Shown here: in pieces, positions 11,717 through 43,969 of the stretch
Numbering within the stretch: the first letter of the stretch is position 1
How the letters are laid out: each line of letters starts with the position of its first letter
DNA from: Mycobacterium sp.
GTDB lineage: Bacteria; Actinomycetota; Actinomycetes; Mycobacteriales; Mycobacteriaceae
DNA: 46,439 bases
NCBI GenBank assembly: GCA_025965975.1
Contig: JAOPVX010000265.1
Coordinates: forward strand, 1-46,439
Direction: 5' to 3'
Notes under the pieces: generated by a model
Databases searched by the model: none
Seen by the model: only the letters and a program-made list of their open reading frames with translations
What the model was told of the DNA's origin: nothing
Translations under genes and position numbers: made by a program

Positions 11717-12351
11717 GTCCTGTGGTCATACACCGAGTACATGTGTGCTGAACCCTCCGTGATCTGCTATCCGAGAATATGTTAGTTAACGCTCCCTCAC
11801 ACTGTGACCGGTGCCACACTAGAGCCATGGGGAGAAAGCGTCAATAGCTCGACCGCTTCTTGTCGCCGCAGGGAGTGCACTGTGCGACACATCACGGACA
11901 TATGTCTTACTATGCGAATCCTCTGGTACGGGAGCATAGGTCAGCGCAGGAAGGCTTTGGACGGAAACTCGAATCGGACAACCGCGGTGGCGTCGAGGCC
12001 TGACAATTTCGCATTGCTAGATTTCGGCACGAAGACAACATCGACTGCCCTAGAAGAGCCGGGTCGCGTCCGTCATATAGTTAACGAGCGTTGCCATCCG
12101 CATGTGCGCGCCGGGCAGAGGTGTCAGGTGCGTCAACGACCGTTAGCATATGTGAGCGGCGCCATGACCTTGGATTGAGGAGGGATAATCGCGGAACAAT
12201 CCCGGTGAATAGCCAGGTCCTGCGACTCGGGACCGCTGGCCGGGGCGTGGTCGGCCGATGCCGACCGTGAGGGATCGTTTACCCATTGCCGTGACGACTT
12301 GTAAAGTCCTGAGTCGACCGCCACGTTCGCACGGCAGGAGTCAGGTACGTC
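11717..12351. other. divergent intergenic region between the mce operon and the CAP/DUF732/kinase operon
   Basis: About 635 nt. A frame of 124 codons (11804-12178) has no recognisable domain and I do not call it a gene. The region carries one good operator palindrome (12082-12093) and a half-site GTTAACGCT around 11785-11793, so it probably contains both divergent promoters. Confidence 0.55.
12082..12093. promoter_or_regulatory. operator palindrome, TAACGAGCGTTG
   Basis: Matches the local consensus TAACGnnCGTTA at 9 of 10 defined positions, flanked as GTTAACGAGCGTTG. It sits between yrbEA and the CAP-domain gene. Inferred binding site of the TetR regulator at 20444-21037. Confidence 0.6.
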
Positions 12352-12855
12352 ATGAGAATCAATGGCAGCATGCGGCACGGCACTGTTGGGGTTCTGACGG
12401 CCGTCATTATCGTAGCCGCCGGCGGCCTCACTCATTCTGCGCCGGCATACGCTGACAACAAGCGCCTCAACGACAGCGTTCTCGCCAATGTCTACACCGT
12501 GCAGCACCGGGCGGGCTGCACCAACGACCTGAAGGTGAGTCCGCAATTGCGGCTCGCAGCGCAGTGGCACGCCGGCGATCTGCTCAGCGATCGCGCCTTG
12601 GACGGTGACGTCGGCTCCGACGGTTCCACCCCTGCGACGCGCGCCACCGCGGCCGGATTCGTCGGCGACGTCGCTGAAACCGTGGCCGGTAATCCGGTGT
12701 TGGCGATCAGCGGTATCGAGCTGATCAACCAGTGGTACTACAACCCCGCGTATCTGGCGATCATGGCGAACTGCTCCTACGCCCAGATCGGAGTGTGGTC
12801 AGAGAACAGCCTCGACCGCACGGTCGTCGTTGCCGTCTATGGTGCGCCTGCGTGA
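12352..12855 (+). CDS. secreted CAP-domain protein
   Basis: A 167-residue protein with a Sec signal peptide (hydrophobic core VGVLTAVIIVAAG, likely cleavage after SAPAYA near residue 34) and a compact CAP/SCP-like domain. Recognisable elements are AAQWHAGDLLSD, the DGSTPATRATAAGF segment, VAETVAG in place of the usual ENIA strand, and INQWYYNPAYLAIMANCSYAQIGV in place of the usual W-S-PGH helix. The second His of the classical CAP tetrad is replaced by Tyr (NPAYLAIM), so a classical metal site is unlikely. First gene of a three-gene operon. Role unknown; extracytoplasmic lipid or sterol binding is a family-based possibility. An alternative start is the ATG at 12370. Confidence 0.75.
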   Translation: MRINGSMRHGTVGVLTAVIIVAAGGLTHSAPAYADNKRLNDSVLANVYTVQHRAGCTNDLKVSPQLRLAAQWHAGDLLSDRALDGDVGSDGSTPATRATAAGFVGDVAETVAGNPVLAISGIELINQWYYNPAYLAIMANCSYAQIGVWSENSLDRTVVVAVYGAPA

Positions 12856-13217
12856 TCATCGGATTCGGTGTAGCGGCTGTCCCACTGGCGGCAGTGGGCG
12901 CCCTTGTCACAACCCTGATTTGCAGCGCGGTCGCGCATGCGGACTCGGTTGCCTATCTGACGAACGTCACCGTCGCACCCGGCTATAACTTTCCCAACGC
13001 TGAGGCTGCCTTGGCGTATGGAAACGCGATCTGCGAGACAGTGGGCATGGGTGCGACGTACGCCGACATCATGGAAGGTGTCCAGCGCGACTTCGCCAGC
13101 TCCGATGAATTTCAACACTCGTACCTCGTCACCCAAGCCGTAGGTGAGTTGTGCCCAGCGCAGATCTGGCGGCTACGGCAGTCGGCGGACGGTTACCGCC
13201 CCGTGTCCGCACCATAG
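12852..13217 (+). CDS. DUF732-domain secreted protein
   Basis: Starting at the GTG at 12852, which overlaps the preceding stop as GTGA, it gives 121 residues; an earlier in-frame start at 12732 lies inside the CAP gene and is rejected. Signal peptide with the core AAVPLAAVGALVTTLICS and likely cleavage after AVAHA. The mature part has the DUF732 pattern: the AEAALAYGNAICETVGMG helix, a spacer, and VTQAVGELCPAQ with two conserved Cys expected to form a disulfide. DUF732 proteins are small exported helical proteins found mainly in mycobacteria, function unknown. Tight coupling to the CAP gene suggests the two act together outside the membrane. Confidence 0.8.
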   Translation: MIIGFGVAAVPLAAVGALVTTLICSAVAHADSVAYLTNVTVAPGYNFPNAEAALAYGNAICETVGMGATYADIMEGVQRDFASSDEFQHSYLVTQAVGELCPAQIWRLRQSADGYRPVSAP

Positions 13218-13226
13218 GCGCCGCAC

Positions 13227-14396
13227 ATGACGAGTTTGGAGTCGCAGAAGGCCATCAGAGAGGACGACGGTACACCAATGAGCCAAAGCGGAAATTCTGG
13301 AGCCGCGTTGATGCTTGCGCGAATTGCCGGCGGCGTAATAGCCGATCGGCTGGGGATCGGCCGGACGTGCGATTCGACGACTCGGATCCCCGCTCGCGCC
13401 GAGGACATAAGCCCTCACTGGTTGACGGAGGCCCTGTGCGCCAGTGTGCTCGGCGCACACGTCGTCGACAGCGAGGTACTGGGAGGTAGCGACGGGACTA
13501 GCTCGCGCCGCGCGATCTCAGTGCGTTACAACCGAATCGGCGTTGACGCCGGACTCCCCACCCGCGTGTTTGCCAAGGCCGCCGTGTCACTCTCGTCGCG
13601 TGCACTGCTCGGACTCACCGGCGTCACGCGGGGTGAGGCAATCTTCTTCAACGAGCTCAGGCCCCACGTCAAACTACGAAGTCCCACCGGGTACTTCGCG
13701 GCAGCCGATCCTAGTAACGGGCGCTCGATCGTGCTGATGGAGGACCTCGCCGTGCAAGGCTGGACCTCCCCGGATCCCATGCAGGACCGCATCGGTGAGC
13801 GGGACGCGATCGACATGACTGAGCAGATGGCGACCTACCACGCCGCTTTCTGGGATGGCAGGCAAGCCGGCACCGCGTTCAAACAGCTGCCGACTCCTCT
13901 GCAATTTCAAAACAACGTCAACCGATTGCCGGGCTTCGTCCGGCAGTTCCACCGCGGCCTGCGGCGGTCCCGAGAGCTGCTGCCTGCGGCACTGTGGGCA
14001 CAACGCGACCGACTCTGGCCGGCGTTCATGCGTTCTCTGGAAATCAGCAGCGCAGGCACCCCCACCCTTCTTCACCAGGATCTGCACCAGGGCAATTGGC
14101 TTCGCGATCCCGATGGCCGGATGGGGCTCTATGACTGGCAGTGCGTTGCTCGCGGTAGCTGTGCCCTCGACATGTCCTATGCCCTGATCGCAACGCTTGA
14201 CACCGAATCGCGGCTCTCGTGGCAACACGATTTGGTCCGGACCTATCTTGACGAGCTTGCCAAGCACGGAGTCACGGACGCACCGACGTTCGATGAGGCA
14301 TGGCTGGACGTCCGGCGCCAGACCCTGCATGCCCTTTGTCTTTGGAATCTGCACAAATGGTCAACTGCGGTTCGCCCCCGAACTGCAACCGCGTGA
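13227..14396 (+). CDS. APH/ecdysteroid-kinase-like phosphotransferase, frameshifted 3' end
   Basis: Reads 389 residues as sequenced. Kinase-like features: N-lobe with VLGGSDGTSSRRAISVRY and FAKAAV, a VLMEDL hinge, the catalytic loop LLHQDLHQGNWL (about residue 280) and LYDWQCVARG, equivalent to the metal-binding DFG. These proteins phosphorylate small hydroxylated substrates and often sit in mycobacterial lipid-catabolic clusters. The last 12 residues of this frame are unrelated to the family. The +1 frame continues with GQLRFAPELQPRDY and ends RAVEDMQTLEALV at 14469, exactly the expected family C-terminus. Removing one A from the AAA at 14355-14357 joins the two into a 413-residue protein. 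Either an indel in the sequence or a real truncating mutation. Confidence 0.8.
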   Translation: MTSLESQKAIREDDGTPMSQSGNSGAALMLARIAGGVIADRLGIGRTCDSTTRIPARAEDISPHWLTEALCASVLGAHVVDSEVLGGSDGTSSRRAISVRYNRIGVDAGLPTRVFAKAAVSLSSRALLGLTGVTRGEAIFFNELRPHVKLRSPTGYFAAADPSNGRSIVLMEDLAVQGWTSPDPMQDRIGERDAIDMTEQMATYHAAFWDGRQAGTAFKQLPTPLQFQNNVNRLPGFVRQFHRGLRRSRELLPAALWAQRDRLWPAFMRSLEISSAGTPTLLHQDLHQGNWLRDPDGRMGLYDWQCVARGSCALDMSYALIATLDTESRLSWQHDLVRTYLDELAKHGVTDAPTFDEAWLDVRRQTLHALCLWNLHKWSTAVRPRTATA

Positions 14397-14718: not shown

Positions 14719-15459
14719 TCAGCACGTATGTTGACGATCGACATCTCCAAAGCGGCTTAGCTCCAATGCTCTTGACCTCCTGTTGATCGAGTTGGTCGTC
14801 ACCACTGTCATCGCGATGATCCAGATCAAGAACACGACGAGGGGCACCCACAGCGCCAGCAGACCATCGAACGCGAAAATCCCACGCTTGAAGAACATAA
14901 TCAGACCCGCCGGAATGGACAGGAAGGCGACCCAAAAGTTGAGATACGCCGCCCAGCGTGGGAGTGCTGGGACGTCGTTGTCGTCAAGAAGGATCGCAGC
15001 GCCGATCACGACGTACCACAGACTGAACGGCGCCCACGTGAAGAGAAACAAGAACCACCCGAAGTCATTGAGCATTCGGGTGATATCTGGTGACGTCTCG
15101 CTGGGCCGAAACGCGGCGACAGCCCACACCATCATGGTGAAGACAGTGACCACTGCGCCGAGGGAGGCGAACGCCACCTGACCATAGGTGAGGATTGGGA
15201 CCGCACCCTCCGATGCCCTGAATTGGACGGCGATCGCGATACCGAACGGGATCACCAGTGGCATAGCGATACTGCTGACGAACAGCCCTAGGCGGATCGT
15301 CGTCGTGTGCATGACATACCAGTCGGCGACCTGCTGTGCGCTGGCGGTGGGTGCGATCGGGGGAAGATACCTTGCCAGCACCACCCATCCGATGAGGAAG
15401 AGCAGAACAGCGAGCGGCCCGCACCCGATGAAGGCTAGTTGCACACGCCTCGTTTGCAT
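14719..15459 (-). CDS. six-helix membrane protein, function unknown
   Basis: A 246-residue polytopic protein with about six predicted transmembrane segments (for example AVLLFLIGWVVLARYL, LGLFVSSIAMPLVIPFGIAIA, LGAVVTVFTMMVWAVAAF, FLFLFTWAPFSLWYVVIGAA, YLNFWVAFLSIPAGLIMFF, LLALWVPLVVFLIWIIAMTVV). I do not recognise a catalytic motif. ATG at 15459 with an AAGGGAA site upstream. Third gene after the oxidase III-like and IV-like genes, so probably part of the same membrane assembly. Confidence 0.75.
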   Translation of the reverse strand: MQTRRVQLAFIGCGPLAVLLFLIGWVVLARYLPPIAPTASAQQVADWYVMHTTTIRLGLFVSSIAMPLVIPFGIAIAVQFRASEGAVPILTYGQVAFASLGAVVTVFTMMVWAVAAFRPSETSPDITRMLNDFGWFLFLFTWAPFSLWYVVIGAAILLDDNDVPALPRWAAYLNFWVAFLSIPAGLIMFFKRGIFAFDGLLALWVPLVVFLIWIIAMTVVTTNSINRRSRALELSRFGDVDRQHTC

Positions 15460-15496
15460 TTGTGGTGTTTCCCTTCTTCATTACCCGTGTGGTCGA

Positions 15497-15763
15497 TCAC
15501 CACATGGTGATTGCAATGACAGCTATTCCTGTGCATGCGCTCCACCCGGCGAACAACAGGCGCAGCACCGCCGGTGCGTCTCTCAGTTCCATGAACTGCC
15601 ACCCGATCGCGGTTACCTTGACGAAGGCGACACCCAGCACAATCGCAGACATGGCCTCGGACTCCTGTAGCCCTCGGCCCGCTCCGAACCCCCACGACAC
15701 AAGGGTCGCCACGACCAGTGCGCTCCACAGCGGGACGTATCGAAGAGTTGCGGATTCCCTCAT
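15497..15763 (-). CDS. small membrane protein, cytochrome oxidase subunit IV-like (COX4_pro/NorF type)
   Basis: An 88-residue protein with three hydrophobic segments, matching the length and pattern of prokaryotic oxidase subunit IV/NorF proteins (VPLWSALVVATLVSW; the central AIVLGVAFVKVTAIGWQFMEL with a Lys and a Glu; LLFAGWSACTGIAVIAITM). The FVK...QFMEL signature resembles that family. I chose the ATG at 15761-15763, 5 nt after the stop of the subunit III-like gene; the longer open frame upstream is antisense-like and overlaps that gene. Confidence 0.7.
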   Translation of the reverse strand: MRESATLRYVPLWSALVVATLVSWGFGAGRGLQESEAMSAIVLGVAFVKVTAIGWQFMELRDAPAVLRLLFAGWSACTGIAVIAITMW

Positions 15764-15768
15764 GCCGG

Positions 15769-16386
15769 TCAACGGACGAGGTAGAGCAGAGGGAACAAGA
15801 CGACCCACAACAAGTCGACCATGTGCCAATAACATCCGGCCCCCTCGATAGCTGCGTATCGGCCTTTCGAAATGTGCGATCGCCGCACTGCCACGATGAC
15901 AAGTCCGAGGAAGACGAGGCCCAGGGTGAGATGAAGAAGGTGGACTCCGGTCAGGATGAAGTAGTACTGCCAGAAGTCGCTGGCCGCCAACGTGACTCCG
16001 CTGGACAAGGCCGTGCTGTATTCGATGTACTTCACTGCGCAGAAACCGATTCCGCATGCGAAGGCGCCGGCGAAAAACCGTCCGGCCAGCGCCCCCGTAG
16101 TCGTGCGCACTGCCCGGACTCCCAGCACGACCAGAAGCGAGCTCGTCAGCAGGAGCACGGTATTGAGGGCACCGAGCGGCTGGCTGAGATGCGATTGCGA
16201 TGCGAGAAATTCCCCGGCGCTGCTCCGCCTGGCGACGGAGTACGCACCGAAGATGAGCGCGAACACGGTCATGTCACCAAGGATGAACACCCACATCCCT
16301 GGCTCGCCGGGTACATGACCCTGGCGATGACTCACGGATATGGGGGGCGGTCGCTCACTGGGGCGTGGCACGACTGTCATGGTCAC
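15769..16386 (-). CDS. cytochrome c oxidase subunit III-like protein (NorE family)
   Basis: A 205-residue protein with about five transmembrane helices. Diagnostic pieces are GMWVFILGDMTVFALIFGAY near the N-terminus, the YYFILTGVHLLHLTLG signature of the subunit III fold (around residue 145), and GCYWHMVDLLWVVLFPLLYL at the end. NorE-type proteins normally accompany haem-copper oxidases or NO reductases, but no catalytic subunit is present in this window. First gene of the trio; the start is GTG 16386 or ATG 16380. A regulatory palindrome lies about 60 nt upstream. Confidence 0.85.
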   Translation of the reverse strand: MTMTVVPRPSERPPPISVSHRQGHVPGEPGMWVFILGDMTVFALIFGAYSVARRSSAGEFLASQSHLSQPLGALNTVLLLTSSLLVVLGVRAVRTTTGALAGRFFAGAFACGIGFCAVKYIEYSTALSSGVTLAASDFWQYYFILTGVHLLHLTLGLVFLGLVIVAVRRSHISKGRYAAIEGAGCYWHMVDLLWVVLFPLLYLVR

Positions 16387-16753
16387 TCGCCGATCAACAT
16401 CGTCGCACCGCCTACCCTTTACCAGACGACATTACTGTCATAGGTTATCGATCGTTAACATCCTCTGTCCAACGTTTCCGGAAACCCACCTGTAGGAATT
16501 GGCGAGTCTCGACCAAGACCTGCGCTCGGTCCGGCCTCGCAGTTGGTTAAACAGTTGCTATTCGGATCCGCGGCGGCCGGGGTGAGCACCCGTGAGCCGC
16601 GGAGCAACCCCGTCGGAGCACCATCATCCGAGTGCGAGCTCCGGAGGCCGGCAGTCCACATTGACAATTAACGATGGTTCACGCATAGTCGGTTTTTACC
16701 AGGCAGCGATGCTCCCCTACCGTGTTGCAGGCATCGCCGAAAGCGAGGGGTCG
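16387..16753. other. divergent intergenic region between oxidase III-like gene and fadD
   Basis: Contains one operator palindrome at 16446-16457 and, if the ligase starts at 16754 as I propose, about 300 nt of upstream sequence. I see no small gene in it. Confidence 0.45.
16446..16457. promoter_or_regulatory. operator palindrome, TATCGATCGTTA
   Basis: Extended form GTTATCGATCGTTAAC matches GTnAACGnnCGTTnAC with one mismatch. It lies between the oxidase III-like gene and the FadD gene, so it could control both. Confidence 0.65.
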
Positions 16754-18409
16754 ATGTTGCGCTTCCCTGTGGACAAGCTTCGCCAAGCTTCGGATCTGGC
16801 GCGGGGCATGACAGTGCTCATGCGCCGCGGAATGGTGGATCCGCGCCGCCCGGACTTGGTGTGGAGGTCGGCCCGCGACATGCGCGCCTATGGCGGCGTC
16901 ACCGCGGCGGTGCTGCAAGGTGTCCGTGACAACGGGCCGGCCACCGCGATCATCGATGAAGTCGGTCCCTTGAGCTTTCAGGAACTCGAGCAGCAGTCCA
17001 ATGCGCTCGCTCGCGGCCTTCTCGCGTCGGGCATCCACGAGGGCGACGTCGTGGCGCTCCTGGCCCGCGACCACCGTGGTCTGGTCTTGTCGATGCTTGC
17101 GACCGGAAAGATCGGCGCTCGATTGCTGTTGATGAACACCGGATTTGCGAAACTGCAGTTCGCTGATGTCGCTGTGCGCGAGAAGGCCACCGTCGTGCTG
17201 CACGACAGCGAATTCATTGACCTACTCGACGTGATACCCGACACGATTCCGCGGATCCTCACCTGGTGTGATGACGACACCGCGCTGAGCCCTGACATGG
17301 TCACGATCGACTCGCTGATCGCGGCACAGCGCACCGACGAGCTGCCACCCCCCGGCCGACCCGGCGGACTGATATTGCTCACCAGCGGCACCACCGGTAC
17401 ACCCAAAGGCGCTCCCCGGGACAACGTTTCACCGATGTTGTCAGCGCAACTGCTCGACAGAGTTCCGACCCCGCAGCGCGAGACGATCGTGGTCGCCGCC
17501 CCCATCTTCCACGGAACCGGACTCGGACAGTTCATCCTCGGCCTCGCGCTGGGAAACACGGTCGTTCTGCAAAGACGCTTCAATCCCGAAGTGACACTGG
17601 CCAATGTGGCCAGCAATCGAGCGAGCTGCCTCGTCGTCGTGCCTACCATGCTGCAGCGGATCATCGACCTGGGACCCGACGTCCTTGCCAAGTACGACAC
17701 CTCGACACTTCGCATCATCTTCGTGGCGGGTTCATCACTGCCGCCAAGCCTGTGCCTGCGTGCGCGCGAAGTCTTCGGCGATGTCCTCTACAACATGTAC
17801 GGATCTACCGAGGTCGCAGTGGCTGCCATCGCAACCCCGCGCGACCTGCGCAAAGCGCCGGGCACCGTGGGGAAGCCGGTTCTGGCATGCAGAGTCGAAC
17901 TCTACGATGCCAACCGAAACAAGATCACCACCCCGAACACGATCGGCACGGTCTTCGTTTCCAGCTCAACGAGTTTCAAGGGCTACACCGATGGTCGTCA
18001 CAAGGAGATCGTCAATGGCCTGCTGTGTAGCAACGACATCGGACACTTCGACGACAGCGGCCTGCTCTTCATCGACGGCCGCGACGACGACATGATCGTC
18101 TCCGGCGGTGAGAACGTGTACCCGCTCGAGGTGGAGAACCTGCTCGCAGCCCGCGACGATGTCTACGAAGCAGCCGTAGTGGGCGTCGACGACGACGACT
18201 TCGGAAAGCGATTACGCGCCTACATTGTTTCTGCGCCGAACGCCGCCCGCGATGCCCAAGAAATCAAGACCTACGTCAAGACCAACCTCGCCAGGTTCAA
18301 AGTTCCCCGCGACGTCTACTTCGTCGAGGAACTCCCCCGCAATACGACAGGCAAGTTACTCCGAAACGCGCTGGACACACTCGATGTGGAGCGCGGCGAC
18401 CGCCCGTAG
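16754..18409 (+). CDS. acyl-CoA synthetase (FadD, AMP-forming ligase)
   Basis: A 551-residue ANL-superfamily enzyme that would activate a carboxylic acid to its CoA thioester via an acyl-adenylate. Motifs: P-loop LTSGTTGTPKG (about residue 209), FHGTGLGQF, YGSTEVAVA (about 390), DGRDDDMIVSGGENVYP (about 470) and the catalytic C-terminal Lys in NTTGKLLRN. The ATG at 16754 has a GAGGGG upstream and gives the usual family length; in-frame starts at 16592 and 16709 would add 54 or 15 atypical residues. It stands alone as a transcription unit opposite the oxidase III-like trio. Probable entry step to CoA chemistry for the substrate of this region. Confidence 0.88.
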   Translation: MLRFPVDKLRQASDLARGMTVLMRRGMVDPRRPDLVWRSARDMRAYGGVTAAVLQGVRDNGPATAIIDEVGPLSFQELEQQSNALARGLLASGIHEGDVVALLARDHRGLVLSMLATGKIGARLLLMNTGFAKLQFADVAVREKATVVLHDSEFIDLLDVIPDTIPRILTWCDDDTALSPDMVTIDSLIAAQRTDELPPPGRPGGLILLTSGTTGTPKGAPRDNVSPMLSAQLLDRVPTPQRETIVVAAPIFHGTGLGQFILGLALGNTVVLQRRFNPEVTLANVASNRASCLVVVPTMLQRIIDLGPDVLAKYDTSTLRIIFVAGSSLPPSLCLRAREVFGDVLYNMYGSTEVAVAAIATPRDLRKAPGTVGKPVLACRVELYDANRNKITTPNTIGTVFVSSSTSFKGYTDGRHKEIVNGLLCSNDIGHFDDSGLLFIDGRDDDMIVSGGENVYPLEVENLLAARDDVYEAAVVGVDDDDFGKRLRAYIVSAPNAARDAQEIKTYVKTNLARFKVPRDVYFVEELPRNTTGKLLRNALDTLDVERGDRP

Positions 18410-19590: not shown

Positions 19591-19751
19591 AGGTGCTTCC
19601 TCGAGGTAGATGGTGCGCTGACGACTCAAGGCCGGTCGCTGTTGATCGCTGCCCGCGGGGTCAGTGCACCGCCGCCTCCTAGTGCGATCCGGCACCCTGG
19701 TGTTTATGGCGCCCTGAGTTACTCATTCTGCTTCATTCGACATCGATATGT

Positions 19752-19763
19752 CAACGATCGTTA
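19752..19763. promoter_or_regulatory. operator palindrome, CAACGATCGTTA
   Basis: Nine of ten defined positions of TAACGnnCGTTA. It lies about 160 nt upstream of the lipocalin-like gene on its promoter side. Confidence 0.62.
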
Positions 19764-19873
19764 TCGGTTAGGGTGGGTCCTATCCCACAGCGCAGCTCGT
19801 TTGACGGTGAGTGAGAGCCTTTCCACTGGTCACCCCGCCGGACGGCGGTCCAGCAGCCATCTCGCCTGCACGT

Positions 19874-22100: not shown

Positions 22101-22112
22101 CTGACGTTCCTT

Positions 22113-33906: not shown

Positions 33907-33948
33907 ACGTTGCTGATCATTCAAGACATCCGACCGGCAGGAGAGTCC

Positions 33949-36611: not shown

Positions 36612-37792
36612 TAAGAGCGGGGCAGCTTCAACGAGTGCTCGGCGACGTAGTTGAGCACCATCTCCCGCGAGACGGGCGCCGTCAGCTGAAGACGCGTCAA
36701 GAACCAGAACTGCGCCAACTCATACTCATTGGAATACCCGTTGCCGCCGTGGGTCTGGATCGCGTGATCAAGGCAATGCACGCCGGCTTCGGCCGAGGCG
36801 AGTTTGGCGATATTGGAGACCTCACCGGCGTCAAGGCCGGCGTCGTAGAGGGCTGCGGCCTTCTGGGTCATCAATCGCGCTTGTTCGAGCTTGATCTTGC
36901 CTTCGGCAAGCGGATGCGCGATCGCCTGGTGCGCGCCGATCGGGGTGGACCAGACCTTGCGTGTCCGCGCATAGTCGGCAGCCTTGTTCAGCGCGTAGCG
37001 GGCGATGCCATTGGATACCGCTGCGGACAGAATGCGTTCAGGGTTGAGCCCGTCGAACGCCGCGCGCAGACCCTTGCCCTCCTCGCCTATACGGCAATCC
37101 GCATCGACTTCGACATTGTCGAAGTACAGCGTGAACTGCTTCTCCGGTTCATCGAGCGCGGTCTCGATCGGCTGCTTGGTCAGTCCCGGCGCCTTCGGAT
37201 CCACCATGAGCAAGGTCAGTGCTCCTCGGCCCTTGGCGTCATGACCGGTGCGCGTCACCACCAGCATGTGATCACAGACGTCTACACCCGAGATGTAGTA
37301 CTTCTGCCCGCTGATGAAGTACTTGTCACCTTCTCGGCGCGCGACGGTCGAGATGTTGTGGGAATTGGAACCCGCGTTCGGCTCGGTAAGGGCGAACGAG
37401 AATTTCTGCTCTGCGTTTGCAATCCCGGTGAGCCAGCGCTGTTTCTGCTCGGGTGTGCCGTGGCGGGCCAGGATGGTCCCGATGATGCCCGGCGACACCA
37501 GCAGCTTCAGCAGTGGGCATCCGGCTGCCGCTGTTTCCTCCAGCACGGCGACGAGTTCGAGCAGCCCCTGCCCGCCGCCGCCATACTCCTCAGGTAGGTG
37601 CACCCCGAGAAAACCGTTGGCGCCCAGTGCGCTCCACAGTTCGTCGGGCGGGCGGCCCTCGTCGCTGATCGCCTTGTAGTACTTGGGCCCATACTCGGCG
37701 GCGATGGCAAAGACCGCTTCCCGAAGAGCCCTCTCCTCGGCGCTGGGCAGCAAGGCAAGCGCCGGTTCGGCACCTTGATCGATCGCGGTCAC
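36608..37792 (-). CDS. acyl-CoA dehydrogenase (FadE family)
   Basis: 394 residues from the GTG at 37792 with GGAGGAG about 5 nt upstream; the open frame up to 37855 crosses the operator and is rejected. FAD motif FALTEPNAGSNSHNI, KYFISGQKYYISGVDVCDH, FDGLNPERILSAAVSNG and THGGNGYSNEYELAQFWFL. The C-terminus PVSREMVLNYVAEHSLKLPRSY replaces the usual Y-E-G region. Clear paralogue of the ACAD half of the fusion at 39894. First gene of ACAD-crotonase-ACAD operon. Confidence 0.88.
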   Translation of the reverse strand: MTAIDQGAEPALALLPSAEERALREAVFAIAAEYGPKYYKAISDEGRPPDELWSALGANGFLGVHLPEEYGGGGQGLLELVAVLEETAAAGCPLLKLLVSPGIIGTILARHGTPEQKQRWLTGIANAEQKFSFALTEPNAGSNSHNISTVARREGDKYFISGQKYYISGVDVCDHMLVVTRTGHDAKGRGALTLLMVDPKAPGLTKQPIETALDEPEKQFTLYFDNVEVDADCRIGEEGKGLRAAFDGLNPERILSAAVSNGIARYALNKAADYARTRKVWSTPIGAHQAIAHPLAEGKIKLEQARLMTQKAAALYDAGLDAGEVSNIAKLASAEAGVHCLDHAIQTHGGNGYSNEYELAQFWFLTRLQLTAPVSREMVLNYVAEHSLKLPRSY

Positions 37793-37828
37793 ACGCTCCT
37801 CCGTCCCGGGTTGGCCAGTCACACTATA

Positions 37829-37840
37829 TAACGCTCGTTC
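37829..37840. promoter_or_regulatory. operator palindrome, TAACGCTCGTTC
   Basis: Nine of ten defined positions; flanks TATAACGCTCGTTCAC. Centred about 42 nt upstream of the ACAD start at 37792, where a repressor would block the promoter. Confidence 0.65.
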
Positions 37841-37919
37841 ACATAACGAAACCACGTCGGCTTTCCGTGGTGGACCACTGTTTGTCGGCAGTTAGGCGAC
37901 CCCAGTCGCTGTCCTGCGC

Positions 37920-37931
37920 TAGCGATCGTTC
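37920..37931. promoter_or_regulatory. operator-like palindrome, TAGCGATCGTTC
   Basis: Eight of ten defined positions. It is the second site in the region upstream of the ACAD operon and touches the 3' end of the racemase remnant. Confidence 0.5.
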
Positions 37932-38337
37932 ACACTAATGACGGGGTGCGTCGACGTCTGCCAGAGCGTGGAGCCGTGTCGCAGCGTCGGCGCTGAGGCC
38001 GGCCCCACTGCCGCAAGACTTGGTCTATGCGCGGCGGGGTCGATGACGACTCGATGTCCAACGAGAAGCGCGGAGAGCGGCGCCGGCACAGCTCCCGCTC
38101 GGTTTCATGGAATGCACCCCTGGCCCGGCGGTGTGGATGAAGCGGCGCTTCATCGAGTGTCAGGACCGGGGTGGCGCACGCCTGCGCGCCATCGAAGATA
38201 GCTTCCCACTGCGCCCGCGTCTTGGTGCGAAGTACCGCCGCCAGGCGGTTGGTCAGTTCGGCCAGCGCCGTCGCCGCGAAGGGACCGGGTCCGACCCCGC
38301 CGAACTCCACCACCTTGATACCGCACAGAGGTTGCAC
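37930..38337 (-). pseudogene. internally deleted CoA-transferase family III/alpha-methylacyl-CoA racemase remnant
   Basis: 135 residues. The first 30 residues (GIKVVEFGGVGPGPFAATALAEL) are the intact N-terminus of the CaiB/BaiF/racemase family, with GTG start and AAGGAG upstream. Then the reading jumps directly to the family C-terminus (RLAAVLRTKTRAQWEAIFDGAQACATPVL then LDEAPLHPHRRARGAFHE and PRFSLDIESS). Full enzymes have about 360 residues, so roughly 220 residues, including the catalytic core, are missing by an in-frame deletion. It cannot be a working racemase. The loss implies methyl-branch epimerisation is either supplied elsewhere or no longer needed. Confidence 0.75.
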
Positions 38338-38359
38338 CAGTCTCCTTGAACTGTCAGAG

Positions 38360-38776
38360 CTAGGTCTTGGCTGCGGCGACCATGGCTGCGGTATCGAAAT
38401 AGAACGCTTGAAGTCGGCTGACGCGATCCCCGGCGAACGTCCACCTCTCCAATACCGGCATGGCGGTGCGTCCCAAATTCAGTGATAGGGCGGCGATCAC
38501 GTCCGTCTGCTCATCGGCTGTCGACACCAGGACGCGATCCAGATCTATGGCGGCGCCGCTGGCTGCCGCCGCTCCCACGAACGCGACAATCGCTGGCACA
38601 CCCCGTATCGTTCCGCCGCCCGGCAGTGATCCCGGCCGTATCACCTCGGCGTCGGAGGCGAAGTGATCGCTAACCAGTCGCGCTGCTGCGTCCGCGTCAC
38701 CGCGCGCGAGCGCCTGATAGAACCCGGTCACCAGCGACGCTGGCCCCTGTTTGTCGATATCGGCTTGTTCGCCCAC
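38360..38776 (-). CDS. SnoaL/NTF2-like small enzyme or binding protein
   Basis: 138 residues with the cone-shaped NTF2-like pattern: N-terminal helix SLVTGFYQALARGDADAAARLVSDHF, VIRPGSLPGGGTIRGVPAIVAFV, and C-terminal strands TAMPVLERWTFAGDRVSRLQAFYFD. This fold hosts ketosteroid isomerases, limonene-epoxide hydrolases and polyketide cyclases. I cannot pick a reaction, although isomerase or hydratase chemistry on a cyclic intermediate would fit the neighbourhood. GTG start with AAGGG; 22 nt before the racemase remnant, so the two share a transcript. Confidence 0.75.
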   Translation of the reverse strand: MGEQADIDKQGPASLVTGFYQALARGDADAAARLVSDHFASDAEVIRPGSLPGGGTIRGVPAIVAFVGAAAASGAAIDLDRVLVSTADEQTDVIAALSLNLGRTAMPVLERWTFAGDRVSRLQAFYFDTAAMVAAAKT

Positions 38777-38822
38777 CGCGGCACCCTTCTGTGATCGTCA
38801 GCGTGGATCGGCCGACGTCTGT

Positions 38823-38834
38823 TAACGATCGCTT
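38823..38834. promoter_or_regulatory. operator palindrome, TAACGATCGCTT
   Basis: Extended form GTTAACGATCGCTTAC is a near match to GTnAACGnnCGTTnAC. It is about 50 nt upstream of the SnoaL-like gene. Confidence 0.6.
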
Positions 38835-38966
38835 ACATTAAGTCACAGGAGATATTCTCTGCCAAGTGGGTAGTGATGTCATCGAATCTGCTATTCCATA
38901 AACGGCGTAACACCCAGCGAATTCACATACCGCATCGTCGGTTCATCTTGTTATGAACCGGTGTTA

Positions 38967-39878
38967 CTAATTCTGTCCACCTATGAATCGGCGGAGTTCG
39001 CCGGCGAACTGGGCGGGTACCTCGATCATCGGGCAGTGGCCGGCGTCATCGAAGAGGACCAACTCGGCATTGCGGATTTGTGCAACCAACGAGCGGGCCA
39101 TGCCGACGGTCAGGATGCGATCGCTGGCCCCCCACACAACCAGCGTCGGACAGCCGATCGTTGCGGGATGGACCTCATCGCGCGCTCTGACCGCCGCGCG
39201 CATCGTTGACACGAATCCTGGCGCGCCCATCGCCGGCACAAGGATCGCCGCCAAAGCCGGCGAGACCGACGCCGGGTCGACGACAGCCGAGGCAAAGAAG
39301 TGGCGGTACGCCCATCCGGTGCTTGCGATCCAGCGGCAGATGCGCGGCTGTGACAAGACGGCGTGCGCGAGCCGCATCCCGGCCAAAATCAGGCCCAGCC
39401 GTCCCGGTGCGACTGGTACGGCGCCGCCGTTGACCAATACCAGCCCAGACACACGGTCGGGGTGGTCGGCGGCCACAGTCAGCGCAACCAATCCCCCCAT
39501 CGAGTGCCCCACGACAACGGCCCTCGATTCGCCGAGCTGATCGAGAAGGCCAGTAACAACGGTGATCTGGGCGTAGAAAGCGTCACCCACCGCCACGTGG
39601 GAGGCACCGAACCCGGCGAGGTCGACGGCTATCACTCGTGATGTGCGCGCGAGCTCGGGGATCACCCGCAGCCACCACTGCCAGCAGCCACCCTGTCCGT
39701 GGATGAGCATGACCGCTGGGCCTGAGCCGACGTCGACATAGCGCACGGCGCGACCCGCGATGACGGCATCATGGGTGACCGCCGACCAGTCATAGGACCG
39801 CCACACTGCGTCAGGATCGTCATCGTGCGCGCGGTCGTCGTGGCGGTCCAGCGACTGCGCGTGTACGTCGAGTGCCAT
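38967..39878 (-). CDS. alpha/beta hydrolase
   Basis: 303 residues. Catalytic triad visible: nucleophile Ser126 in VVGHSMGGL, Asp in VWGASDRIL (about 253), His281 in DDAGHCPMIE; oxyanion region LIHGQGGC. ATG with AAAGGAG 5 nt upstream and 15 nt after the membrane-ACAD stop, so it belongs to the BVMO operon. A Baeyer-Villiger oxygenase followed by a hydrolase is a standard ketone-to-ester-to-acid-plus-alcohol module; C-C bond hydrolysis (MhpC-like) is an alternative. Confidence 0.88.
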   Translation of the reverse strand: MALDVHAQSLDRHDDRAHDDDPDAVWRSYDWSAVTHDAVIAGRAVRYVDVGSGPAVMLIHGQGGCWQWWLRVIPELARTSRVIAVDLAGFGASHVAVGDAFYAQITVVTGLLDQLGESRAVVVGHSMGGLVALTVAADHPDRVSGLVLVNGGAVPVAPGRLGLILAGMRLAHAVLSQPRICRWIASTGWAYRHFFASAVVDPASVSPALAAILVPAMGAPGFVSTMRAAVRARDEVHPATIGCPTLVVWGASDRILTVGMARSLVAQIRNAELVLFDDAGHCPMIEVPAQFAGELRRFIGGQN

Positions 39879-39893
39879 GAAGGCTCCTTTGCC

Positions 39894-41831
39894 TCAGTAG
39901 GACCGCGGTAATCCGAGGGAGTGTTCGGCGATGTGGTTGAGCACCATTTCGCGCGACACTGGGGCGATCAGCTGCAGCCGCAGAAGGAACCAGTACGACG
40001 ACAGGTCGCTCTCCAGCGCCATCCCGTTTCCGCCGTGGGTTTGGATCGCTCGGTCCAAGGCGAACACCCCGGCCTCAGCCGAGGCGAGTTTGGCGAAGTT
40101 GCTCAATACACCGGCAGGCAGCCCCGCGTCGTAGAACGCTGCCGCGCGTTGAGTCATCAACCGCGCCTGCTCAAGTCTGAGCTTGGCTTCGGCCAGCGGA
40201 TGTGCGATGGCCTGGTGCGCGCCAATGGGCTGATCCCACACCCGACGGCTGCGGGCGTAGCCACATGCTCTGCCCAGCGCCCAGCGACCCACGCCGGTCG
40301 AGATCGCGGCAGACAAGATGCGTTCGGGATTCATCCCATCGAAGGCGACGCGCAGACCGTTGCCCGGCTCGCCGATCACTCGGTCGGCGCTGACATTCAC
40401 GTTGTCGAAGAACAGCGTGAATTGCTGCTCCGGTTGTTCGGGAGCGGTCGGTATCGGTTGCATCGTCAGACCCGGGCTGTGCGGGTCGACCATCAGCAGG
40501 GTCAACCGACCGCGACCCCGCTCGTCGACGCCGGTGCGGGTGACCAGCAAGAGCTCGTCGCATTCGTTGGCGTGGGAGATGAAGTACTTCTGTCCATTGA
40601 CGATGTAGTCACCGCCGGATTCTTCGGCGGTGGTGGTGATGCGGTGGGAGTTGGATCCGGCGTCTGGCTCTGTCAGCGCAAACGCGAAAGTCAGCTCGCC
40701 GCTCGCACATCCGGGCAACCAGCGGTTCTTCTGCTCGTCGCTACCGTGCCGGGCCAGAATCGTGCCGGTGATGCCAGGGGATAGCAGCATCAGCAGTAGC
40801 GGGCAGCCCGCGGCACCGGTTTCTTCGAACACCGCGGTGAGTTCCTGCAGTCCCAGCCCACCCCCGCCGTACTCCTCTGGCAGGTGCACACTGAGGTAGC
40901 CGCTTTCACCCAGCGCATGCCACAGTTCGGCCGCTGGTTCGCCGTTGGCGCACACCTTGCGGTAGTAGCTTGGGCCGAACGACGCGGCGATGTCGAACAC
41001 CGCCTTGCGCAGCATCTGTTCCTCGTCGGTGGCATCAGCGGACAACCTCATCGGGGCACTCATGGAAACCTCTCGTGCGAAACTTGATTCAGTCAACGGC
41101 GGCGCGCCGGCTAACGTTTGCGGTTCGTGCCGCTCCGGCGCCGCCTGCGCGCGGCGGTATCGCGCCAACAAGATGATGTAGGCCAGCGAGACCACAACCT
41201 GCACCGCGACTACGGCGTAGTAGATGGCGCTGCCAAAGGATGGAAGCAGCGCCGGCAGCAGCAGCATCCCGACCGAACCGGGACCGATCAACCCCGCGAC
41301 GGCGAAGACCATGGACTGACCCGACGCATTGCCGCGACTGATGATCCACGGCACCAGTGGCACCACCGTGACGATCGAGGTGGCGGCCAAGGTCACCAGA
41401 GTCAACGGATCATCTAGGACGGATTGAATCCACCACAAAAGCACGAATGTGGCCACCTGCATCAGAAGGTAGGCCGCGACGAACGTAGCTCGGGTCAGAC
41501 GGGGCGCGATGTGTCGATGGCCGTAGCGGAGGAACTGCACGATCAGCACGACCTCGATGCACACTGCGCCGAGCATGCCCACCCAGAAGACCTTGAAGTA
41601 CCAGTGGTCAACCACCTCAAACCATCTGGAGTAGCGCAACGCGAAAGTGAGATCGTGGGCAAACAGGAATGCTGTCGTCACTGCGGGTACGGCTGGGACG
41701 CGGTCACGGTGACCGAGCCGAACGGCCTCGACAATCTGCACAAATCCGGTCGTCCAGGCGAATGCGGTCAGCGTCATCACCCACGGAAGATGCGCATCGA
41801 TCCGGGAGAGAACATCGCCGACGTCGTACAT
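39894..41831 (-). CDS. fusion: seven-helix membrane domain plus acyl-CoA dehydrogenase
   Basis: 645 residues in one open frame. Residues 1-232 contain seven predicted transmembrane helices (about 14-36, 44-64, 73-99, 111-134, 140-162, 170-195, 199-222); 233-256 are a polar linker; 257-645 are a complete ACAD with FALTEPDAGSNSHRI, YIVNGQKYFISHANECDE, FDGMNPERILSAAIS and the C-terminus PVSREMVLNHIAEHSLGLPRSY. The ATG at 41831 overlaps the BVMO stop as ATGA. An internal ATG at 41063 (residue 257) has GAGAGG 5 nt upstream and could also yield the soluble ACAD alone. The membrane half resembles in size and helix count the Pyr4-type terpene cyclases, but that link is speculative. Paralogue of the ACAD at 36608. 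Confidence 0.85.
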   Translation of the reverse strand: MYDVGDVLSRIDAHLPWVMTLTAFAWTTGFVQIVEAVRLGHRDRVPAVPAVTTAFLFAHDLTFALRYSRWFEVVDHWYFKVFWVGMLGAVCIEVVLIVQFLRYGHRHIAPRLTRATFVAAYLLMQVATFVLLWWIQSVLDDPLTLVTLAATSIVTVVPLVPWIISRGNASGQSMVFAVAGLIGPGSVGMLLLPALLPSFGSAIYYAVVAVQVVVSLAYIILLARYRRAQAAPERHEPQTLAGAPPLTESSFAREVSMSAPMRLSADATDEEQMLRKAVFDIAASFGPSYYRKVCANGEPAAELWHALGESGYLSVHLPEEYGGGGLGLQELTAVFEETGAAGCPLLLMLLSPGITGTILARHGSDEQKNRWLPGCASGELTFAFALTEPDAGSNSHRITTTAEESGGDYIVNGQKYFISHANECDELLLVTRTGVDERGRGRLTLLMVDPHSPGLTMQPIPTAPEQPEQQFTLFFDNVNVSADRVIGEPGNGLRVAFDGMNPERILSAAISTGVGRWALGRACGYARSRRVWDQPIGAHQAIAHPLAEAKLRLEQARLMTQRAAAFYDAGLPAGVLSNFAKLASAEAGVFALDRAIQTHGGNGMALESDLSSYWFLLRLQLIAPVSREMVLNHIAEHSLGLPRSY

Positions 41832-43795
41832 CAGCCCGCACCTCGTCGAGCAGCCTCCGACGCCGCGACCAGACCTGTGCTACCGCTGCGGATGTCAAAA
41901 TCAGCCAGATCGAACATTAATGTCTTGCGCCAGTACTCAATGTAGGGCCACGGGTTGGTGATGACGATGCGGCCCGCGTCGTTGCGGTAGTAGGTGGTCA
42001 TGCCGGGGTGAGACCACACGGTGTGCGACAGCGCCTCGTCGAGTGCTTCGTTGTAGGCCGCGTAGCGCTCCTGCTTCGCCTCGATGTCGGTGACGTCGTG
42101 CAGCAGAAGGTGTTTGAGCGCTTGCATCACGTAGCGAACTTGGAACTCGGTGCCGTGGATCGCGCTACCACCATGCCCGGCATTGGTATTGGGGCCGTTA
42201 ATGATGAAGAAGTTCGGGTAGTCGGGAACCGTGATGCCTAAGAACGCGCGCGCGTCATCGGCGCCCCAAGTCTGACCGCGCAACGTGCGCCCCGAGCGTC
42301 CACGGATGTCCATCGGGTAGAGCATCTGAAGGACCTTGAAACCGGTGGCCATGACGATGACGTCGACCGGGTATTCGCGGCCGGAGGCGGTGACGATACT
42401 CGTGTCGGTGACCGCGCTGACTGACTCGGTGACCAGTTCGACATCGTCGCGCCCAAGCATCTTGTACCAGCCGTTGTCAATCAGCGGCCGCTTACCGTAG
42501 GGGGGGTAGTCCGGCAGGCAGGCGTCGAGTAGGTCGCTGCGGTCCCCGAGCTGCTCGGTGATGTACTTGGTGAGGAACACCCGATGCCGTTCGTTGGTGG
42601 CGTTGATCGAACGATCCTGGTGTGGCCAGTCGGGGTCGATCTGCAGTCCGGCGTGCAAGCGGTCGCTGAAATTCCAGAAGCTGCGCAGGCGATACCACGA
42701 CAAATAGAACGGAACTTGGTCGAACAGGATGTGCACTCGATCTGATACCGCACGGTGATAGTTGGGATGCGGTAGCGCCCATTGTTTGGAGCGCTGGAAC
42801 ACGATGGTGTGTGCCGCCCGGTAGAGGATGCTGGGCACCAATTGCATGGCACTGGCACCGGTACCCACGACCCCCACGCGCTGACCTTCTAAAGCGACGT
42901 CGCCGCGCCACTGCGCGGTGTGCAGAATCGGCCCCGCAAAGCGGTCGAGTCCGTCGATTGGTGGTAGCGAGGGGCGGTTGACCATGCCGACCGCCGAGAT
43001 AAGCACGTGTGCGGCCAGCGTTTCGGTGCTGCCGTCGCCGTGGCGGACGTGAACCATCCAGTGGCTGGTGGCGTCGTCCCACTCAGCGCGCTCGACTTCG
43101 GTCTGGAATCTGATGTGGCGGCGGAGGTCGTGAATTCTTGTCAGCTCGTCGAGGTAGGCGAAGACCTCACCGCCCTTGGCGAAATACTGCGACCACTGAC
43201 TGTTCATCGCGAAGGTGAAGCTATACAGGTGGCTGGGCGTGTCTACACCTACGCCGGGATAGGTGTTCTCATACCACGTCCCGCCGATGTCGCTGTTCTT
43301 CTCCACGACGGTGAAGTCGATACCGGCGGCTTTCAGCTTGATGGCCGCACACAGCCCCGACAGTCCGCTGCCGATCACGATCGCTGATAGACGTCCGGGA
43401 TTCTCGATCTGGGAAAAGTCCACGTCGCGGGTCATCAGCCCGAGTTCCTCGGACAACAGTTCACCGTAGGCGGGCGGCACGTCCTCGGCCAGTGCGACAC
43501 CGAGCATCCGGGCGACCTGTTCGGGCGCGAGGTCGTGCGGTACGAGTTGTCCTGCGTGGTACAGCATCACAGCGTCGAATGCCGCGGCGCGCACCTGGCT
43601 CTGCAGCTCGTCGTCGAGCCCCCCCGTGTCGTTGTCATCCAGGCCGACCGCATGGCGCGGGGTGAAGGGCGGATTCAGCCATCGTTGATGATCGCCGGTG
43701 AGCTGGACCAGCACCATGAGAAGGGTCGGAATGTTGGCCTCGCGCAGCGCGTCGGCCAGCACGGCCGGATCGATCGGCGTGCCGTCGGGATCCAT
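41831..43795 (-). CDS. Baeyer-Villiger/flavin monooxygenase (HAPMO-like)
   Basis: 654 residues: an N-terminal helical extension of about 130 residues as in 4-hydroxyacetophenone monooxygenases, the FAD fold IVIGSGLSGLCAA (142-147), GGTWYENTYPGVGVDTPSHLY, BVMO fingerprint FAGPILHTAQW (286-296, with Arg where Pro or Asp often follows), and the NADPH fold VVGTGASAMQ (310-318). ATATGFKVLQ near the end is typical in type (MATGF). ATG with AGGAGG 6 nt upstream. It would insert oxygen next to a ketone, forming an ester or lactone, and heads the operon with the membrane-ACAD fusion and a hydrolase. Confidence 0.9.
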   Translation of the reverse strand: MDPDGTPIDPAVLADALREANIPTLLMVLVQLTGDHQRWLNPPFTPRHAVGLDDNDTGGLDDELQSQVRAAAFDAVMLYHAGQLVPHDLAPEQVARMLGVALAEDVPPAYGELLSEELGLMTRDVDFSQIENPGRLSAIVIGSGLSGLCAAIKLKAAGIDFTVVEKNSDIGGTWYENTYPGVGVDTPSHLYSFTFAMNSQWSQYFAKGGEVFAYLDELTRIHDLRRHIRFQTEVERAEWDDATSHWMVHVRHGDGSTETLAAHVLISAVGMVNRPSLPPIDGLDRFAGPILHTAQWRGDVALEGQRVGVVGTGASAMQLVPSILYRAAHTIVFQRSKQWALPHPNYHRAVSDRVHILFDQVPFYLSWYRLRSFWNFSDRLHAGLQIDPDWPHQDRSINATNERHRVFLTKYITEQLGDRSDLLDACLPDYPPYGKRPLIDNGWYKMLGRDDVELVTESVSAVTDTSIVTASGREYPVDVIVMATGFKVLQMLYPMDIRGRSGRTLRGQTWGADDARAFLGITVPDYPNFFIINGPNTNAGHGGSAIHGTEFQVRYVMQALKHLLLHDVTDIEAKQERYAAYNEALDEALSHTVWSHPGMTTYYRNDAGRIVITNPWPYIEYWRKTLMFDLADFDIRSGSTGLVAASEAARRGAG

Positions 43796-43868
43796 GTAGC
43801 GTCCTCCTGGTTTCGCCCGCGGCCACCTCTGACAGGCGCCGCAGATTGCGGTCAGCCTCCGGCAGTGT

Positions 43869-43880
43869 TAACTGACGTTA
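43869..43880. promoter_or_regulatory. operator-like palindrome, TAACTGACGTTA
   Basis: Nine of ten defined positions, flanks GTTAACTGACGTTATC. It lies about 75 nt upstream of the BVMO start. Confidence 0.55.
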
Positions 43881-43957
43881 TCAACTGAACAACGGAATGG
43901 CAAAGGTTCGATTGATGCTTCAACACTTGTTATATGCGCCAGCGACGGGGACGTGAC

Positions 43958-43969
43958 GAACGAGCGTTA
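43958..43969. promoter_or_regulatory. operator palindrome, GAACGAGCGTTA
   Basis: Nine of ten defined positions, right flank GTTAACAC. Second site upstream of the BVMO operon, 89 nt from the first, close to the 3' end of the next hydrolase gene. Confidence 0.6.

Follow-up and report, generated by a model that had tools for sequence, protein, structure and literature searches.

A candidate TetR operator recurring across a lipid-catabolic locus of Mycobacterium sp.

Gene content of the locus and the recurring palindrome

The stretch of DNA analysed here (46,439 nt of Mycobacterium sp.; hereafter, the window) encodes a yrbE/mce import operon, a FadD acyl-CoA ligase, several oxygenation and beta-oxidation operons and a TetR-family regulator (Table 1), with 5.06 kb of intergenic and about 41 kb of coding DNA. 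Since the gene boundaries come from a simple in-house gene caller, gene starts are approximate. In the yrbE/mce operon, the first yrbE is set off from the remainder by 89 bp, and the ORF at 1002-1775 gave no domain match in the scan. Of the three ORFs of the COX3-like trio (14719-15444, 15497-15763 and 15769-16296), the domain scan covered the first and third, and returned no match at gathering level for 14719-15444. The product of 18550-19629 matched no Pfam family at 0.5 and, in its 381-aa form, no NCBIfam family at 0.001.

One short palindromic site recurs at nearly all operons of these roughly 46,000 bases, its best consensus being the 16-bp palindrome GTnAACGnnCGTTnAC. All 13 copies listed by an earlier sequence-only reading are present, each within two mismatches of TAACGnnCGTTA (none at 27153, one at nine copies, two at 33895, 37920 and 38823), and a further copy at 12134, overlooked in that reading, carries one mismatch. 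TAACGnnCGTTA is matched exactly only once (27153) and its outer T/A is not conserved, the conserved part being AACGnnCGTT within a GT..AC frame.

At up to two mismatches, TAACGnnCGTTA has 24 matches in the whole window, whereas 100 shuffles averaged 8.8 and never exceeded 16. In a motif-free ranking of intergenic palindromes (half-sites of 4-5 bp, spacers of 0-8), AACG-2-CGTT came first, with 9 observed and 0.066 expected. The 16-mer at up to two mismatches yields 15 intergenic and 2 coding matches (reversed pattern: 0 and 1). Position 37920 is just past the point where a CoA-transferase III (racemase-type) fragment ends, and its 16-mer overlaps that end. The copy at 33895 differs from the 16-mer at three positions and hence falls outside these 15. 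Intergenic pieces of at least 30 bp hold 14 sites, whereas 1000 dinucleotide shuffles averaged 0.23 and never gave more than 3.

This placement supports the proposal of a single regulon across nearly all transcription units of the locus. Assignment of sites to units flags 12370-13217 and omits the kinase gene that follows, because a doubtful 20-aa call intervenes. The sites at 19752 and 19874, described earlier as flanking the TetR gene, are both upstream of it.

Table 1. Features of the window. All units apart from the TetR gene are proposed targets; mismatches are counted against the 16-mer.
Feature	Position	Strand	Basis or context
yrbE/mce import operon	1002..11716	-	MlaE, MlaD, Mce4_CUP1 in 4 of 5 ORFs scanned
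Small proteins (one DUF732) and EcKL/APH kinase-like gene	12370..14396	+	Domain scan
COX3-like trio	14719..16296	-	COX3 9.7e-15 for 15769-16296
FadD acyl-CoA ligase	16592..18409	+	AMP-binding 3.7e-57; gene caller start 16661
359-aa protein, no family match	18550..19629	-	Pfam/NCBIfam scans
TetR-family regulator, proposed repressor on the palindrome, GTG start	20444..21037	+	TetR_N, TetR_C_24, fold neighbours
F420 LLM oxidoreductase and thiolase	21090..23348	-	Domain/NCBIfam scans
Thiolase, CYP268/CYP124-like P450, SDR	23424..27104	-	Domain scan
SDR	27292..28398	+	Site 382 bp upstream of caller's start 27541, closer to longer ORF's start
Kinase-like, three ACAD genes, one ECH gene	28432..33712	-	Domain scan
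Enoyl-CoA hydratase	33949..34752	+	Domain scan of ORF from 33910
ACAD-ECH-ACAD operon	34771..37855	-	Domain scan
CoA-transferase III fragment and SnoaL-like gene	37930..38776	-	Domain scan
Hydrolase, 645-aa ACAD with N-terminal extension, BVMO	38967..43795	-	Domain scan
Weaker site, 2 mismatches	11785..11800		77 bp upstream of yrbE
Site GTTAACGAGCGTTGCC	12080..12095		Between yrbE/mce operon and 12370+
Site GTCAACGACCGTTAGC	12132..12147		Overlooked by earlier reading
Weaker site, 2 mismatches	12267..12282		95 bp upstream of 12370+
Site	16444..16459		Between COX3-like trio and fadD
Site	19750..19765		129 bp upstream of 18550-19629 (-)
Site	19872..19887		251 bp upstream of 18550-19629 (-); starts 572 bp ahead of TetR start 20444
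Site, complete match	23363..23378		Upstream of thiolase/LLM oxidoreductase operon
Site	27151..27166		Between SDR-P450-thiolase operon and divergent SDR
Site	33722..33737		Between ACAD operon and divergent enoyl-CoA hydratase
Weak site, 3 mismatches	33893..33908		Upstream of enoyl-CoA hydratase
Site	37827..37842		43 bp upstream of ACAD-ECH-ACAD operon
Site	37918..37933		134 bp upstream of ACAD-ECH-ACAD operon; overlaps CoA-transferase fragment end
Site	38821..38836		53 bp upstream of SnoaL-like gene
Site	43867..43882		80 bp upstream of BVMO operon
Site	43956..43971		169 bp upstream of BVMO operon

Distribution of the site in the genome and beside TetR relatives

The sites, their intergenic placement, their local enrichment and their association with a TetR subfamily across Actinobacteria were computed directly. 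Genome-wide, AACGnnCGTT occurs 94 times (77 for the reversed control), nine of them in the window, and the 16-mer at up to two mismatches shows little excess (171 against 155). At up to one mismatch, the counts are 22 and 3, with eight of the 22 in the window and three on contig C305. The enrichment is local, since the genome-wide excess at up to two mismatches is small and the sites are concentrated in the window; the scan did not find the motif equally common elsewhere in the genome, an outcome that the sequence-only reading had named as counting against its regulon.

Contig C305 bears more of the window's gene set and encodes a carotenoid/lignostilbene-type oxygenase, and the regulon seems to extend onto it. 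A further 11 sites with no more than one mismatch fall on other parts of the genome, seven within genes and four intergenic by the in-house caller. Of the intergenic four, one lies on C169, 353 bp ahead of a YrbE gene; one on C321, separating a TetR_C_16 regulator from an FAD monooxygenase; one on C241, 45 bp ahead of an ammonium-transporter gene; and one on C128, 84 bp ahead of a small gene without family. Most of these 11 are taken as chance occurrences.

Among 79 other relatives of the window TetR, 60 carry a site no more than 300 bp from the TetR gene or operon start, and 19 lack one by this rule; scrambled palindromes (n = 47) averaged 1.8 and reached at most 11 of 79, and the reversed pattern reached 1. 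By component, 45 relatives have a site near the TetR and 59 near the operon start; 19 of the 60 pass otherwise than by nearness at the TetR start, part of these via the operon start. From -200 to +10 bp around the TetR match start, 63 sites fall in 44 of the 79 loci, while the 47 scrambled palindromes averaged 0.55 loci (maximum 4). Nine mycobacterial regions with a TetR relative hold 40 intergenic and 31 coding matches (reversed control: 0 and 7). Coding matches are frequent in some relatives (six in G159, eight in G045), and only two intergenic sites were counted in each of G172, G018 and G183. In M. hodleri, source of the nearest relative of the window TetR (60%), no site was found in the 300 bp upstream of that TetR gene; one lies past it, before the oxygenase gene.

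In a survey of the genus, the 12 genomes with a TetR of the window's subfamily had a median of 10.5 sites, compared with 5 for the 178 genomes that lack a match (P = 2.7e-5; 9.8e-5 minus the window genome), and one genome (G115) has 25 sites despite having no TetR match at 1e-30. With the TetR tree labelled by the 300-bp rule, the label required 16 changes, whereas shuffled labels averaged 18.0 (57 of 500 shuffles equally low), with no clear clustering of the site. When the most palindromic 16-mer ahead of each of the 79 relatives was sought without reference to the motif, GC-rich chance palindromes scored as high and an in-gene control was similar; the association is accordingly judged by the scrambled-palindrome controls.

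That a single compound is both imported and degraded is less well supported, the mce link being mostly not conserved. Sites are present at the mce operon here; five relatives have a close yrbE in the vicinity of their TetR cluster, and just one of these five has a site upstream of it, a weak one, while none of 18 other yrbE loci has a site within 600 bp.

The resident TetR regulator and alternative explanations

The window TetR is a 197-aa protein with a single TetR domain (TetR_N 1.8e-13 and TetR_C_24 3.7e-10 in a scan of the longer ORF 20375-21037), and has the N-terminal helix-turn-helix and TetR C-terminal fold of the family (structure model pLDDT 90.6). Its closest solved folds are BkaR 6yj2 and 4g12; AibR-isovaleryl-CoA, FasR and FadR are within the top 50 structural neighbours, and KstR2, whose operator is AnCAAGnnCTTGnT, is a neighbour as well. 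The best NCBIfam match is the SACE_7040 family (NF050111); at 115.5 bits against a curated cut-off of 250, membership was rejected. This TetR is the sole close member of its subfamily found in its own genome (next match, 33% identity), and its relatives carry the site beside themselves or their operon, which upholds the earlier suggestion that it is the likely regulator. No site lies within 300 bp upstream of its gene, a position usual but not required for TetR proteins; the nearest upstream site (Table 1) is closer to the divergent gene.

BkaR (Rv2506 / MSMEG_4718), the nearest fold, shares 27-28% identity with the window TetR in structural alignment, and 4g12 is the second-best PDB sequence match, behind Mce3R. 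The available part of PMC3920632 describes BkaR control of CoA-ester catabolism through a regulon that comprises 10 genes in M. smegmatis and a predicted 12 or more in M. tuberculosis. The window, by comparison, has some 13 units. Its operator is, like the window site, a 16-bp palindrome beginning with GT and ending with AC, and reads GTTA-N-T-N4-A-N-TAAC where the window has GTNAACGNNCGTTNAC (PMC3920632, in part). The operator published there, GTTANTNNNNANTAAC, was ruled out as the identity of the site, as positions 6 and 11 differ; among the 19 window and C305 sites, position 6 is C in 18 and position 11 is G in 18. Neither is the window TetR the Rv2506 orthologue: its genome encodes another protein that matches 4g12 more closely (L049 on C363; judged by eye), and this BkaR-like protein groups apart from it in the tree.

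Real operators could nevertheless be read by another TetR (the BkaR-like protein on C363 or a paralogue unseen in an assembly gap) or by several. The window TetR lacks a nearby site, genome completeness stands at 93.4%, and Mycobacterium triplex, M. pinniadriaticum, M. rhodesiae and M. vinylchloridicum each have two TetR relatives in site-bearing loci, so that one motif need not imply one regulator; however, a second close relative was not found in the window's genome and the BkaR operator, as published in part, differs as above, and this alternative is considered unlikely. About as improbable is a role of the window TetR as activator, or together with a second factor. FasR, an activator by its NCBIfam name, is both a structural neighbour and a weak sequence match (49.3 bits against a cut-off of 330), whereas BkaR and Mce3R, the solved proteins more closely related, act as repressors according to the available parts of their reports, and many sites lie 43 to 170 bp ahead of called starts.

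KstR, another TetR repressor, governs a large regulon for lipid degradation in mycobacteria and is highly conserved among them (PMC1995591, in part), whereas the window subfamily is present in 12 of 198 sampled genomes. Assigning the sites to the cholesterol regulon of KstR, or to some other steroid regulon already described, would suit the gene content (mce, ACADs, thiolases and a CYP125/CYP124-related P450), but is very improbable, as the published KstR operator TnnAACnnGTTnnA is ruled out by half-site spacing (AAC and GTT are two bases apart there and four here). Mce3R, which gives the best PDB sequence match through both of its halves (1.7e-25), controls an mce operon, as is proposed here for the window TetR; it is a double TetR protein on asymmetric 25-bp sites (PMC11667970, in part), unlike the single-domain window TetR and its palindrome, and an Mce3R-type identity was rejected. 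KstR3 of M. neoaurum is a TetR repressor of a sterol side-chain operon of aldolase, DUF35 and reductase genes (PMC10398937); it was set apart by gene content rather than by KstR3 sequence, and the terms 'motif' and 'palindrom' are absent from the available part of that text. Finally, a repeated structural or mobile element, as multiple copies within one locus might suggest, is scarcely credible and was set aside, since the copies share just the 16-bp core, their flanks differ, and they stand at promoters and beside TetR genes across many genera.

Proposed regulon and pathway

With a probability of roughly 85%, GTnAACGnnCGTTnAC is the operator of the BkaR-like TetR repressor 20444-21037 over about 13 units of the window and several on C305. 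We infer that a TetR dimer binds each site and represses, rather than activates, these units until a pathway intermediate, most likely an acyl-CoA, binds the repressor and releases it from DNA. Release would jointly induce uptake (mce), activation (FadD), oxygenation (the P450, the BVMO and the carotenoid/lignostilbene-type oxygenase of C305) and beta-oxidation (ACAD, ECH and thiolase), and the compound taken up and oxidised may be isoprenoid- or stilbene-like and hydrophobic. More tentatively, and with the odds somewhat against it, the TetR subfamily would have kept GTnAACGnnCGTTnAC across Actinobacteria and as far as two contigs of an Acetobacteraceae bin, mycobacterial paralogues would share the operator and thereby cross-wire catabolic islands, and the site would here govern an undescribed degradation of plant- or carotenoid-derived isoprenoid or stilbene-like compounds through a lignostilbene/carotenoid-type oxygenase, a CYP268-like P450 and a Baeyer-Villiger monooxygenase.

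A candidate operator sequence is thus provided for a TetR subfamily found in many soil Actinobacteria, and from it testable target lists can be drawn. Furthermore, orphan P450, BVMO, cleavage-oxygenase and beta-oxidation genes are joined in one proposed pathway, the inducer of which could lead to its substrate, while operators common to paralogous repressors, if true, would bear on the partitioning of mycobacterial lipid-catabolism clusters.

The kind of system is known from KstR- and BkaR-type regulons; the site and the pathway look undescribed. AACGnnCGTT was not found in the literature searched as text, a search beyond which image-only motif logos (PMC4482099, Table 2) lie. No motif text was found in the available part of PMC11752888, on JTY_0672 of M. 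bovis BCG. JTY_0672 is a TetR and, going by locus numbers, the neighbour of a carotenoid cleavage oxygenase gene.

Palindromic sites and transcription units in the window

The palindrome TAACGnnCGTTA, for which the sequence-only reading had claimed 13 intergenic copies, is present at all 13 places (one exact, nine with one mismatch and three with two), and an additional site, absent from that list, was found. The conserved core of the sites is AACGnnCGTT, framed by GT..AC. Base counts per position were taken from 19 sites in intergenic pieces 30 bp or longer, 14 in the window and five on C305, a second contig of the same genome with more of the same gene set; position 4 is A and position 13 is T in 19/19 sites, while position 6 is C and position 11 is G in 18/19. 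AACG-2-CGTT was also the top over-represented intergenic palindrome when no motif was supplied (9 vs 0.066 expected). The 16-mer at up to two mismatches occurs 15 times in intergenic and twice in coding DNA of the window (reversed pattern: 0 and 1). The palindrome is a real, conserved predicted operator with a predicted regulon, a further case among the TetR lipid regulons.

Of the units lying within 1002-43795, 13 show one or more sites in the span reaching from 450 bp upstream to 60 bp downstream of the first gene's called start; gene coordinates come from a simple purpose-written caller, and the starts are approximate. Two joins were made by hand, for genes that a 90-bp rule left apart from their neighbours. 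The exceptions among the units are the TetR gene and the operon at the right end. The sequence-only reading had proposed one TetR regulon for import and catabolism of one compound; the regulon is supported, and the mce link is weak among relatives, which counts against the reading. One protein of 359 aa with two sites upstream has no match in Pfam or NCBIfam.

Coordinates of the features discussed (window positions unless a contig is named)
Feature	Position	Remark
mce genes	1002-10853	joined by hand, 89 bp behind first yrbE
Additional site	12134	
Kinase gene	13227-14396	joined by hand, after a doubtful 20-aa call
359-aa protein	18550-19629	
TetR gene	20444-21037	product 197 aa; closest site starts 572 bp ahead of 20444
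Acyl-CoA dehydrogenase	36608-37792	
Acyl-CoA dehydrogenase, longer	39894-41831	
Right-end operon	44002-46416	start falls outside the window
C305		22.5 kb, read as L001 and L002
Two TniQ-domain genes	L001 (C305) 2877-7263	adjoin site-bearing genes
Site near YrbE/MlaE gene	L139 (C169) 2478	1 mismatch, 353 bp upstream
Similar palindrome	L143 (C321) 2755	between TetR_C_16 regulator and FAD monooxygenase

Sites in the rest of the genome and beside TetR relatives

Across the window genome (7.44 Mb, 449 contigs), exact AACGnnCGTT occurs 94 times, nine of them in the window, vs 77 for the reversed control. The 16-mer at up to one mismatch gives 22 sites vs three (window 8, C305 3 and 11 singles on other contigs); at up to two mismatches the counts are 171 vs 155, hence no overall excess is seen. 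C305 holds genes of the following kinds: kinase-like, FadD, ACAD, thioesterase, aldehyde dehydrogenase, MaoC hydratase, hydrolase and RPE65-family oxygenase. At its right end a thiolase gene is present by its first part, and at the right end of the window a thiolase gene by its later part, both matching the same thiolases of relatives, which suggests that the two contigs may be neighbours. The TniQ-domain genes on C305 suggest a mobile element close to the island. The YrbE/MlaE gene on C169 possibly marks another mce operon that shares this control, and the palindrome on C321 is possibly the operator of the TetR_C_16 regulator.

Of 198 genomes sampled from the genus, 20 (window genome included) gave a match to the TetR at 1e-30, and these were split by protein type into 12 of the window subfamily and eight of a more distant type. 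This split was drawn after the sites at those loci had been looked at; it does not strictly follow them, since G031 in the first group lacks a site (in a 3.5-kb locus) and G071 in the second has two. Median sites per genome (up to one mismatch) were 10.5 in the subfamily genomes (Mann-Whitney P 2.7e-5; 9.8e-5 with the window genome left out), 6.5 in the distant type (P 0.15) and 5 in the 178 genomes without a match, although one of the latter, G115, has 25. Nine regions of 20-60 kb around relatives held 40 intergenic and 31 coding matches (reversed control 0 and 7); the frequency of coding matches in some relatives counts against the operator reading.

A scan of named genomes gave at least 79 relative loci, and the matches listed include Mycobacterium, Rhodococcus, Nocardia, Pseudonocardia, Amycolatopsis, Geodermatophilaceae, Acidimicrobiales, Patulibacter and two contigs of one Acetobacteraceae bin, among others. 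Among the matches listed, 63 sites spread over 44/79 loci fall in the stretch that runs from 200 bp ahead of the match start to 10 bp past it, while 47 scrambled palindromes with the CG count kept equal average 0.55 loci and reach 4 at most. Likewise among these matches, a site is found 300 bp or less from the TetR or operon start in 60/79 loci (scrambled mean 1.8, maximum 11; reversed pattern 1); the TetR start suffices in 45 and the operon start in 59. The 19/79 loci that show no site under this rule count against the operator reading. A second, different cluster of Mycobacterium triplex, with AveC-like, amine-oxidase-like and DUF1295 genes and a paralogous TetR, carries eight intergenic copies of the site.

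A 92-row tree joins the window TetR to its counterparts from M. hodleri and G172 (100/95), and this group is nested in a larger one of 51 rows (98/95). A site accompanies 30/42 rows of the larger group labelled by rule (counted by hand); the remaining nine, window TetR included, were hand-labelled as site-bearing, some against the 300-bp rule. Under rule-only labelling (81 rows, window TetR scored as without a site), 16 changes were needed vs a shuffled mean of 18.0, and 57/500 shuffles were as low; hence the site label shows no clear clustering on the tree.

The proposed regulator, known systems and possible substrate

The structure model of the TetR (pLDDT 90.6) is closest in fold to BkaR (6yj2; TMq 0.78-0.80), while the best PDB sequence match is Mce3R (both halves), followed by 4g12, titled Fad35R. 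The next match within the window genome, at 33% identity, looks like the BkaR orthologue from alignments compared by eye. The 300 bp upstream of the window TetR are free of sites, as are those of its nearest relative, from M. hodleri, which counts against the operator reading. KstR, BkaR and Mce3R are the closest described regulons considered, and the operators given for them in the published passages differ from the palindrome; the searched literature text, which leaves out motif images and most subscription papers, yielded no assignment of it to any regulator.

Combinations of TetR with cleavage oxygenase, ACAD, BVMO and SDR recur in Mycobacterium, Nocardia, Amycolatopsis, Sciscionella and Aeromicrobium. 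Cleavage oxygenase identity is 72-82% in most mycobacterial loci showing one, in some cases over fragments, and G039 has another copy at 64%; the values are 72-75% for Amycolatopsis and Sciscionella and 69% over a fragment for Aeromicrobium, and none was seen in the Nocardia locus. Of the solved chains, the oxygenase comes closest to 6xm6 (6.2e-63), which bears only the name dioxygenase, and to lignostilbene dioxygenase isozyme I (7e-58), with apocarotenoid oxygenase a weaker match (3.8e-26); the NCBIfam lignostilbene model scores 280 bits, under its cut-off of 800. For the P450 the nearest match is CYP268A2, followed by chains of CYP125 and CYP124 type; for the BVMO it is steroid monooxygenase, and for the aldehyde dehydrogenase the benzaldehyde type, under that model's cut-off. 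These nearest matches suggest an isoprenoid- or stilbene-like compound as the substrate, though they do not fix it. The longer acyl-CoA dehydrogenase has an N-terminal part of ~265 residues without a Pfam match, and is 68% identical to the shorter one over the shared part.
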